DNA of 64,000 nucleotides, taken from positions 558,001 to 622,000 of the forward strand of contig NZ_JAHFVL010000001.1 in NCBI RefSeq assembly GCF_018599185.1, given 5' to 3'. The DNA is from Rhodanobacter sp. LX-99. Lineage in GTDB: Bacteria; Pseudomonadota; Gammaproteobacteria; Xanthomonadales; Rhodanobacteraceae. The notes under the pieces are model-generated. The model was not told where the DNA came from. It worked only from the letters and a program-made list of their open reading frames with translations, and searched no databases. The position numbers were made by a program, and so were the translations under genes. Positions 51,522-54,485 of the stretch are shown one piece after another; the stretch's first letter is position 1, and each line of letters starts with the position of its first letter.

Positions 51522-54485
51522 TCAGAACCAGCGGCGATCCTCGCCCGGCCCCTCGACGTTGCCGACACAGCGACCGCACAGTTCGGGGTGGTCGGCGTGG
51601 CTGCCCACGTCGTCGCGGCGGTGCCAGCAGCGCACGCACTTGGCGGCGCCGCTCACGTCGGCGCGAACCCAGGCTCCGGCGCCGTCCAGCTCCACCTTCA
51701 CCGCATCGTCCGCGCGCGGCGTCGATGGCGCCAGGGCGAAGTCGGAGGTGATGAAGAAGAAGCGCAGTTCGTCGGCGACCTCGGCGTAGCGCGACTGCAC
51801 CGCGGCGTCGGCATGGACCACCAGCTTCGCTTCCAGCGCCGCGCCGATCCGCTCGGCCTTGCGCATGCCTTCGAGCACGCGCGAAGCGCTGTCGCGGATC
51901 GCCAGCAAGTCGGCCCACCAGCGCCGCTGTTCCGGCGAGTTCTGGGTGGCGGCCAGGCCGCCGTACCAGGTTTCGAACAGCACGCTGTCGCCGCGCTCGC
52001 CCGGCATGGCCTGCCAGATTTCCTCGGCGGTGAAGCTGAGGATCGGCGCCAGCCAGCGCACCAGCGCTTCGGCGATGCGGTACATCGCGCTCTGCGCGCT
52101 GCGCCGGCCGCGGCTGTCGGTCGGCATGGTGTAGAGCCGGTCCTTGGTGATGTCCAGGTACAGCGCGCCCAGTTCGTTGGTGCAGAAGTTCTGGATGCGC
52201 GCCACCACTTCGGGGTAGTCGTAACGCTCGTACGCGGCGGTGACCGCCTGCTGCACGTCGTACGCCTGCTGCACGGCCCACTGGTCCAGCAGCAGGCTGT
52301 CTTCCACCGGGACCAGATGCCTTGCCGGATCGAAGCCGTCCAGGTTGCCGAGCAGGAACTTCGCGGTATTGCGGATGCGCCGGTAAGTGTCGGAGACGCG
52401 CTTGAGGATCTCGTCGGAGACGGTCATCTCGTTGCGGTAGTCGGCCGAGGCCACCCACAGCCGCAGCACGTCAGCGCCCAGCGTGTCCATCACCTTCTGC
52501 GGCGCCACCACGTTGCCCAGCGACTTGGACATCTTGCGGCCGTTCGCGTCCACCGCGAAACCGTGCGTGAGCACTTCGTCGTAGGGCGCGCGGCCGTGGA
52601 TCGCCGACGAGGTCAGCAGCGACGACTGGAACCAGCCGCGATGCTGGTCGGAGCCTTCCAGGTACATCACCTTGCAGTGCGACGCCGTGCCCTGCTGCAG
52701 TTCCGGGCGCTGGCCGATCACCGCGTAGTGCGTCACGCCGGAATCGAACCAGACGTCGAGCACGTCGGTGACTTTCTCGTAGTCGTTCGCGTCGGCGCCG
52801 AGCAGCTCGGCCGCGTCCAGCGCGAACCATGCGTCGATGCCGCCCTGCTCCACCTTCTGCGCGACCTGCTCCAGCAACGCGACCGAATCCGGGTGCGGCT
52901 CCTGCGTGGCCTTGTGCACGAACAGCGCGATCGGCACGCCCCAGGTGCGCTGGCGGCTGATGCACCAGTCCGGGCGGCCGGCCACCATCCCGGCGATGCG
53001 CTCCTCGCCCCAGCCCGGCACCCAGCGCACGTTCCTGATCGAGGTGAGTGCCGTCTCGCGCAGCTGCGCCTGCTCCATCGAGATGAACCACTGCGGCGTG
53101 GTGCGGTAGATCACCGGCGTCTTGTGCCGCCAGCAGTTCGGGTAGCTGTGCTCGATCTTCGCGAACGCCAGCAGCACGCCGCGCTGGCGCAGCAGGTCGA
53201 CGATGGCGTCGTTCGCCTTCCAGATATGCATGCCGCCCAGGCCGAGGCCATCGGCAACGGGAGTGTCGATGCGATAGGTGCCGCGCGGCTCGATGTAGTT
53301 GAGCAGGCCGATGCCGTATTCGCGCGCCACCACGAAATCCTCGACGCCGTGGTCGGGCGAGGTGTGCACCGCGCCGGTGCCGTCCTCGGCGCTGACGTGC
53401 TCGCCGAGGATCACCGGCACCTCGCGCGGGTAGAACGGATGGTGCAGTTTCAGGCCTTCCAGCGCCCTGCCCGACGCACGGCCGAGTACGCGGCTCCCCT
53501 CTCCCCCCGGGAGAGGGGCTGGGGGTGAGGGTTCGGTGGAACCGGAATGATTCGCTCCGCCCGTACCCTCATCCGCCCTCCGGGCACCTTCTCCCACAGG
53601 GAGAAGGGAATAGCGTGCAGTGACCTTGTCGACCAGCGCAGCGGCGATCACCAGCAGCACGCGCCTGCCGTTCCGCGACGGGCCTTCGATCAGCGCGTAT
53701 TCCAGATCGGCGCCGAGCGACACCGCCTGGCTTTCCGGCAGGGTCCACGGCGTGGTGGTCCAGATCGGGATGGCGGCGATGGCATCGCCGGCGTCCACGC
53801 CGAACTTCGCCAGCAGCGCGTTCGGCTCGACCGCGTCGTACGCCACGTCGACCGCAGGCGAAACCTTGTCGCCGTATTCGATCTCCGCCTCGGCCAGCGC
53901 CGAGGCGCAGTCGAAGCACCAGTACACCGGCTTGGCGCCGCGCACCACGTGGCCGTTGGAAACGATGCGCGCCAGTGCGCGCAGCATGTCGGCCTCGAAG
54001 CGGAAATCCATCGAGCGATACGGGTGGTCCCAGTCGCCGAGCACGCCGAGCCGCTTGAAGTCGGCGCGCTGGGTGTCGACCTGCTCGGTCGCGTACTCGC
54101 GGCACTTCTGCCGGAATGCGGCGGCGTCGAGCTTGTCGCCCGGCTTGCCGTACTTCTTCTCCACCGCTATCTCGATCGGCAGGCCGTGGCAGTCCCAGCC
54201 CGGCACGTACGGCGCGCGATGGCCGGCCAGCAGCTTGGACTTGACCACGATGTCCTTGAGGATCTTGTTGACCGCGTGGCCGATGTGGATCGGGCCGTTC
54301 GCGTACGGCGGACCGTCGTGCAGCACGAACACGCTGTCGCGATCGGCGGTTTTCTGCTGGATCTGCGCGTAGCGATCGACCCGGGCCCACTCCGCCAGCC
54401 AGCCCGGCTCGCGCTTCGGCAAGTCGCCGCGCATGGGGAACGCCGTCTGCGGCAGGTTGATCGTGCTTTTGTAATCGTGGGTCAT
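51522..54485 (-). CDS. ileS: Isoleucyl-tRNA synthetase
   Basis: A 987-residue class I aminoacyl-tRNA synthetase. It has the HIGH motif in [21 protein letters not shown] (residues ~66-70), WDCHGLPIE, the CP1 editing domain, the KMSKS motif (residue ~651, [12 protein letters not shown]), and a C-terminal zinc finger ([10 protein letters not shown]...[14 protein letters not shown]). It is about 49 residues longer than the E. coli enzyme (938). Most of the excess is a ~40-residue insert at 292-331, between DKVTARY and [16 protein letters not shown], encoded by the same palindromic repeat as found in metH2 but in the opposite orientation. Key active-site motifs are intact and the gene is presumably essential, so the insert must be tolerated. 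Confidence 0.97.
53496..53608 (-). repeat. Palindromic repeat element, copy B (in frame inside ileS)
   Basis: On the + strand: hairpin CCCCTCTCCC-CCC-GGGAGAGGGG (53496-53518), GCTGGGGGTGAGGGTTCGG, a ~30-bp centre, CCCGTACCCTCATCCGCCC and the right hairpin CCTTCTCCC-ACA-GGGAGAAGG (53587-53607). It is read through on the minus strand as part of ileS ([17 protein letters not shown] ... [12 protein letters not shown]). Confidence 0.88.

Follow-up and report, generated by a model that had tools for sequence, protein, structure and literature searches.

The ileS gene in a 64,000-nt stretch of the genome of Rhodanobacter sp. LX-99 (contig NZ_JAHFVL010000001.1, positions 558,001 to 622,000; hereafter the window) contains, in frame, a full copy of a dispersed palindromic element of about 113 nt. 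The element is similar in kind to REPINs, i.e. hairpin-forming doublets of repetitive extragenic palindromes (REPs). It probably lodged in an insertion-tolerant loop of the connective peptide 1 (CP1) region of the isoleucine--tRNA ligase IleS, where it would be carried as a passenger peptide; such permissive loops are probably refilled repeatedly, with inserts that shrink, are remodelled and pass between species. According to this explanation, an insert would persist when the frame is kept, no stop is added and the conserved motifs are untouched. Insertions that break a gene would be purged by selection, so that permissive loops, such as those of IleS, MetH, HrpB, an ArgE-like deacetylase, Lpd and an Lhr-like helicase, would accumulate elements repeatedly. 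These loops could take more than one repeat subfamily, in either orientation, and the lodged inserts would then shorten, be remodelled and move between species. We infer that tolerance is the reason for the recurrence, and that the spread between species takes place by short-tract recombination.

Related species with and without a read-through palindrome in the same loop of an essential enzyme, a situation repeated across enzymes, constitute a natural experiment. Three questions can then be put to the test: which housekeeping-enzyme loops can accommodate 30-50 additional residues, by what route palindromic repeats get into genes when no obvious transposase is present, and whether loops that carry repeats are passed between species by recombination over very short tracts.

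An in-frame palindromic element in ileS

The features of the window that bear on the element are as follows.

51522..54485, − strand: ileS, isoleucine--tRNA ligase, 987 aa; open frame whose best PDB matches are isoleucine--tRNA ligases, e.g. 8c9e and 1ffy
53496..53608, + strand: the 113-nt palindromic element in full, in frame and antisense to ileS; from the consensus with sharp ends (104 copies)
5798..8605, + strand: C-terminal part of methionine synthase MetH, 935 aa, in which residues ~684 and 727 flank an insert; NCBIfam PRK09490 and metH, both over their cut-offs
7847..7979, + strand: second copy of the element, sense to metH and in frame, right end approximate; from the sequence match to the ileS copy
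63164..63276, + strand: third copy of the element, intergenic between two reading frames (by eye); from a sequence match

The genome under study (G000) has a single ileS match at E <= 1e-100. The copy of the element in this gene codes for approximately residues 293-331, position 53608 lying within codon 293. It is 87% identical to the metH copy over 85 nt (7847-7931). As the metH copy is sense and the ileS copy antisense to its own gene, the two are mutually antisense relative to their genes; the initial annotation had described the repeat in these terms, and both the sequence match and the reading frames confirm it. By sequence alignment to PDB entries, the loop is placed in the CP1 editing region of IleS: the insert maps between residues 271 and 288 of 1ffy, which we take to be the Staphylococcus aureus enzyme, and its downstream side aligns with residues 76-194 of 1wk8, presumably a fragment of the editing (CP1) domain. 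Read in the ileS frame, the insert would be translated as a passenger peptide rich in Pro, Gly, Glu and Ala.

Structure and distribution of the element

The ileS copy is composed of the following parts.

53496..53518, + strand: terminal hairpin A, CCCCTCTCCC-CCC-GGGAGAGGGG; from sequence and DNA fold
53520..53578, + strand: central inverted repeat TGGGGGTGAGGGT...ACCCTCATCCGCCC with a variable middle; from sequence, DNA fold and consensus stem
53575..53585, + strand: small side hairpin GCCC-TCC-GGGC; from sequence
53587..53607, + strand: terminal hairpin B, CCTTCTCCC-ACA-GGGAGAAGG; from sequence and DNA fold

The left half approximates the reverse complement of the right half, which has the small side hairpin in addition. 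The element is therefore one long palindrome in which two inverted units that are not alike each form a hairpin. The consensus of 131 copies folds end to end and, leaving out the hairpin loops and the centre, 33 of its 36 pairs are kept in 88-100% of those copies that have letters at these positions, and the remaining three in 57, 61 and 79%. At the five consensus pairs of the side hairpin, both sides are changed in 2, 30, 0, 19 and 1 copies. The strand of the ileS copy folds better than all of 200 dinucleotide shuffles (z -3.87 as DNA, -5.33 as RNA), and the fold of the ileS mRNA strand reaches -81 kcal/mol.

In the consensus of 104 full copies, the ends are sharp (left CCCCTCTCCCnnnGGGAGAGGGG, right CACCTTCTCCCnnnGGGAGAAGG) and form imperfect terminal inverted repeats, CCCCTCTCCC / CCCTTCTCCC, alike at 9 of 10 positions. 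Beyond the ends, bias is confined to a few bases on the left (A at -2 in 76 of 117 copies and G at -1 in 71 of 117); the element may thus be about five bases longer on the left than the consensus. No target-site duplication was found among 117 two-ended copies (lengths 2-12, 16 offsets each; best z 2.8, identity 0.27 vs 0.24), in a test that could miss decayed duplications.

With regard to its distribution, the element has 32 blastn matches at E <= 1e-3 in its own genome, counted as 20 distinct near-full copies. The many genomic copies, together with a fold beyond that of the shuffles, show that the ileS element is not a product of chance. Matches are present in 37 of the 45 genomes of the genus and, at the level of the order, in at least 39 of 151 genomes and at least 26 of 64 genera, these being lower bounds since at most five candidates were scored per genome. 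In a set of 72,556 plasmid records, matches were found in 49, of which 36 are from Rhizobium, 7 from Shinella, 4 from Azospirillum and one each from Xanthomonas and Agrobacterium; only five extend over at least 80% of the query. The consensus has no match at E <= 1e-5 in the Escherichia coli genome collection. Rfam identifies only two tRNAs in the window, and its 19 matches to the ileS copy with flanks are all far below the gathering threshold.

A second subfamily (CTTCCCCCGC..GCGGGGGAAG) occupies 41 places in G002, 29 in G003, 8 in G009 and 6 in G020, and 0-2 in each of the other 41 of the 45 genomes. G003 and G002, the two genomes in which this second subfamily (CTTCCCCCGCnnGCGGGGGAAG) is amplified (L375, L374 and other places), are sisters.

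Patchy filling of the IleS loop

IleS was matched in 43 of the 45 genomes of the genus (none in G030 and G033), and 40 sequences were comparable, the divergent IleS of G025, G027 and G041 being left out. A short native loop, typically of six residues (e.g. Arg-Tyr-GLEQAT-VLG), is present in 30 of the 40, and the same loop carries an element-derived insert in the other ten, with loss of the native loop codons. The feature is thus an insertion, and a conserved IleS loop, the alternative left open by the initial annotation, is excluded by the short native loop of the non-carriers. The full element is found in G000, G005, G008, G018 and G028, and half or other units in G002, G009, G014, G020 and G042; the inserts of G009 and G020 belong to the second subfamily. 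As five IleS records of a separate protein collection (P0002-P0006) also carry the insert, it is not an assembly artefact of the genome under study.

On an ileS tree built with the loop removed, the filled state requires nine changes, and 267 of 500 label shuffles are as low. Unfilled rows are no more clustered than with shuffled labels, and most filled rows adjoin unfilled ones, with the exception of the sisters G009 and G042, which are both filled. In other genera of the family, among 27 IleS loci chosen as best-scoring matches, a choice that favours filled loci, the same loop is filled in ten (L389-L393, L406, L408-L410 and L413; by eye). A second loop slightly downstream is filled in four of the 27 (L394, L397, L408 and L412), L395 and L403 being doubtful.

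In the three divergent IleS left out of the comparison (L180, L181 and L182, from G025, G027 and G041), the loop looks, by eye, like the one in Pseudomonas and Azotobacter sequences, and the gene may therefore have been replaced.

Recurrence at the same loops of other genes

Using a codon-usage model trained on IleS, MetH and the high-GC3 frames of the window, 32 of 130 testable near-full copies were placed within one open coding frame. Only three have coding sequence on both sides, on the same strand, without one open frame running through; another 71 are flanked by coding sequence on one side and 24 on neither, which leaves 98 copies outside one open coding frame. The copies were drawn from matches sorted by similarity to the ileS copy, and the genomes contributed unequally; this sampling biases both the in-gene shares and the nearest-copy counts given below.

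The 32 in-frame copies are located in 11 genes: ileS, metH, hrpB, acetylornithine deacetylase, lpd, Lhr-like helicase, icmF, acyltransferase E2, valS, leuS and uvrD. Names were assigned with NCBIfam from one representative protein per gene, the other members being grouped by eye; E2, IcmF and the Lhr-like helicase scored below the curated cut-offs. Several of these genes are hit at the same site across several species. Among the 30 genomes fetched for metH, 12 have an insert in the loop VY-TDTxRTxR-LATL, which in six of them is a short remnant. The insert is sense in G000 and antisense in the close relative G007; the second subfamily also occurs in this loop in G009. The HrpB loop was judged filled in 12 of 30 fetched genomes, four with short or divergent inserts, the loop of the ArgE-like deacetylase was judged filled in 10 of 30, and that of Lpd is filled in four species. 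Filled status was decided by eye for the short metH remnants (6 of 12), for the short or divergent hrpB inserts (4 of 12) and for the loci of other genera. Insert lengths range from short hairpin remnants to 184 nt.

Two further observations concern in-gene copies. The Lhr-like helicases of G000 and G032 (L011 and L289) appear by eye to contain two element-like inserts per protein, one of which has a common extra stretch of about 25 residues. In addition, several stretches of P0007, a protein of 746 aa with the source name very-short-patch-repair endonuclease, resemble the translated repeat.

Inherited and independent inserts

Several results weigh against repeated independent filling by an inconsequential passenger. 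First, of the 27 in-gene copies with a counterpart, 14 have their nearest copy in the corresponding gene of a different species (label shuffles: mean 2.05, maximum 9), with identities of 93-98% in lpd, 90% in icmF, 94% in ileS (G000-G018) and 90% in metH (G007-G014). The nearest copy of the other 13 is elsewhere, and over the 131 copies, a set uneven across genomes, it is within the same genome for nine. Secondly, the ileS inserts of three genera are alike in the fast-evolving middle (74% vs a background of 59%; 0 of 5000 permutations). Such likeness is also observed in lpd (91%) and, weakly, in metH (p 0.02) and hrpB (p 0.05), and is not clear in argE (p 0.09). The inserts are therefore both inherited and independent in origin, and the recurrence is not all due to independent insertion. 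Thirdly, G003 has 29 second-subfamily places, yet its ileS is unfilled, and the ileS insert of G002, a genome with 41 such places, is only near that subfamily. Fourthly, the insert DNA differs by about 9%, as compared with about 25% at the third positions of the flanks, which is not expected of a pure passenger free of constraint. Either the copies arrived recently, after the species split, or they have been homogenised, or the palindrome itself is constrained.

Finally, Ala precedes Arg-Tyr in 9 of the 10 filled Rhodanobacter IleS rows and in none of the 29 unfilled rows read. This link is found in 7 or 8 of 8 independent pairs, with none opposite (median p 0.008), and is confined to the two residues preceding Arg-Tyr. 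Either the IleS insert is not wholly inconsequential or the Ala belongs to a linked haplotype; it either comes with the same local patch or is compensatory. In metH and argE, no comparable link was found beside the insert, and the hrpB rows were not readable.

The codons next to the inserts also differ between filled and unfilled alleles. In the 15 codons to the left of the ileS insert, filled rows are 24.4% from the nearest unfilled row, as compared with 10.0% for unfilled rows (p 1e-4); the right side gives 22.0 vs 18.4% (p 0.18), and no filled/unfilled difference was found in the windows further out (16-45 codons). The excess is on the right in hrpB (20.7 vs 10.2%, p 9e-5), weak and on the left in metH (15.7 vs 11.5%, p 0.005), and absent from the flanks of argE. 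These four genes amount to 24 tests in all, and three hrpB and three argE loci with an unread loop were counted as unfilled in the analyses of 15-codon windows. The diverged tracts of at most 15 codons, on one side each, beside the ileS and hrpB inserts could result either from short-tract exchange of filled loops or from mutagenesis beside the palindrome.

An unlikely alternative is that the element was inserted once, long ago, in an ancestor shared by several genera. Recombination with unfilled alleles would then have brought back the native loop in many losses, and conversion and deletion in place would have made the inserts differ. This scenario agrees with the middle common to the ileS inserts of Rhodanobacter, g10 and g69 and with the Ala linked to filling. 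It also agrees with the 15-codon ileS windows, where the best matches of filled rows lean to filled rows: the margin of the best filled over the best unfilled match ranks 2 (left) and 1 (right) of 63. The right flank of metH leans the same way at a borderline level (0.88 at 20 codons, p 0.05; 0.90 at 50 codons, p 0.04). Nevertheless, it requires recombination for every restoration of the native loop. Moreover, a long haplotype common to filled ileS alleles was not seen in the 20- and 40-codon flanks (0.93-0.99, p 0.20-0.44). Since orientation, subfamily and the use of a second loop differ among inserts, several entries are likely.

Repeated filling of permissive loops remains the preferred explanation, to which an exchange of whole loops may be added. 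Filled ileS rows are nearest to another filled row in 5 of 10 cases on the left and 3 of 10 on the right, with close 15-codon matches between G008 and G018 (0.96, left) and between G042 and G014 (0.91, right). The average closeness among filled ileS alleles in these windows is not raised (excess 0.008, rank 18, and -0.001, rank 27, out of 63). For hrpB, the window on the right ranks first among 55, and 8 of the 12 filled rows are nearest to another filled one. We tentatively propose that lodged repeats act as islands of shared homology, through which species might exchange loops in very short patches (the insert and at most ~15 codons) that would then be overwritten by the genome's own repeat family. 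If true, this would provide a route for dispersed repeats to diversify essential proteins across a bacterial family.

Mobility and relation to known elements

A population of REPINs mobilised by a REP-associated tyrosine transposase (RAYT), with a transposase lost or unrecognised in the genome under study, seems quite unlikely. The two-unit, REPIN-like palindrome would fit such a system, and so would the lack of target-site duplications, as single-strand Y1 transposition is not expected to produce any. The family PF01797, which comprises RAYTs and IS200-type transposases, is matched in 36 of the 45 genomes of the genus. In contrast, it has no hit at E <= 1e-3 in G000, nor in G006, G007, G010, G011, G024, G028 and G030, all of which have element matches. 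No association is observed: PF01797 is found in 29 of 37 genomes with the element and in 7 of 8 without it. The element profile was matched at none of the 30 PF01797 loci fetched, which were taken one from each genome with at most ~1.5 kb on either side; the sole resemblance among them is a hairpin similar to unit A, ~1.1 kb away in L196. By eye, the outer ends of the consensus show no GTAG or CGTC, and CGTC is present only in the variable centre. With no RAYT in the genome itself and no element beside the 30 loci, RAYT mobilisation has no support. The element may have entered by means of an enzyme that is lost or unknown, or by illegitimate recombination.

Rickettsia palindromic elements (RPEs) are the classic protein-coding palindromes. 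The Rhodanobacter element shares with them the in-frame translation of palindromic repeats within housekeeping proteins and, as in RPEs, it is inserted in frame in protein genes that have insert-free homologues. In contrast to RPEs, it belongs to a gammaproteobacterial lineage and varies in orientation and frame; the likeness described here is one of kind. Miniature inverted-repeat transposable elements (MITEs) are short and have terminal inverted repeats, target-site duplications and a partner transposase. The present element is likewise short, with imperfect 10-nt terminal inverted repeats, whereas no target-site duplication was found and no partner transposase was identified for it.

According to PMC3733652, which also cites RPEs, intragenic REPs occur in several species, with tRNA synthetases, UvrD/REP and other helicases among the genes concerned, and the recB genes of two Xanthomonas species have REPs at approximately the same site. 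The REPs and bacterial interspersed mosaic elements of the GTAG and CGTC super-families described there are dispersed palindromes, mainly intergenic and sometimes in frame; the Rhodanobacter element is likewise dispersed, palindromic and in frame in some genes. Unlike them, it lacks outer GTAG/CGTC, has a 113-nt two-unit form, and recurs at given loops across species and, in the case of IleS, across genera. According to PMC3116915, REPINs are two inverted REPs tied to RAYTs, and the trait in common is that two inverted units form one hairpin as the repeated unit. In contrast to these REPINs, no cognate RAYT was found in the genome itself or beside the 30 loci examined, the units of the element are unlike (hairpins CCTCTCCC vs CTTCTCCC), and a quarter of the tested copies are intragenic. 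As no outer tag and no associated RAYT were found, the element was not classified as a GTAG/CGTC REP or as a REPIN, although it works in a similar way; it is placed with the palindromic repeats that are translated within proteins. In-frame REPs and Rickettsia palindromes are already known; what is unusual is that the same loops are filled again and again in different members of a bacterial family. No report of the element or of Rhodanobacter IleS inserts was found in the titles and abstract starts of the best-ranked open-licence PMC papers (the top 2 to 15 per search), and a search of PMC2573895 for the repeat name RIME gave no match.

Tolerance and selection

Selection at the protein level, with an inserted peptide that is useful, for example as a flexible linker that tunes the editing domain, is very unlikely. 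Two observations could be explained in this way, namely that 22 of the 32 in-gene copies are in two of the six frames and that residues adjoining the ileS insert are coupled to filling. However, 30 of the 40 species have no insert, and insert length varies over the whole range given above. Among ten pairs of same-gene inserts, hand-chosen and sharing rows, the differences at codon positions 1, 2 and 3 number 32, 33 and 36, with 19 synonymous and 56 non-synonymous codons. The corresponding numbers in the flanks are 56, 41 and 165 (11 gap-free stretches from 8 of the ten pairs, indel-broken flanks being excluded and the sums added by hand). As the differences are even over the codon positions, the insert peptide is not visibly constrained, and no selection on it at the protein level is seen.

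The copies are also no more open than expected. The mean number of open frames per copy is 3.69 (131 copies), as compared with 3.55 +- 0.09 in dinucleotide shuffles, and 3.62 vs 3.66 +- 0.10 for the 99 copies outside coding frames. The openness of the element is thus that of GC-rich sequence, and a designed stop-free openness is rejected. The initial annotation was right that both strands offer a stop-free frame, but the shuffles show that this is nothing special, an outcome which it had itself named as refuting. Its suggestion that the element is tolerated in proteins, or even selected for insertion into them, is supported as to tolerance (32 in-frame copies as compared with three that are not) and unsupported as to selection, given the lack of codon-position bias and of enriched openness. 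Many open frames are to be expected of any GC-rich DNA, but that the insert is an ordinary IleS loop, or a coincidence of GC-rich sequence, is practically excluded by the unfilled alleles, the many genomic copies, the sharp ends and the palindromy.

Other features of the window

The 3' end of a tRNA gene at 9095-9166 starts a tandem array of three 125-nt copies (9149-9524), of which the second is 99% and the third 78% identical. An open frame of 4090 aa on the − strand (35800-48072) overlaps the repeat families D2, D3, D5 and D9.

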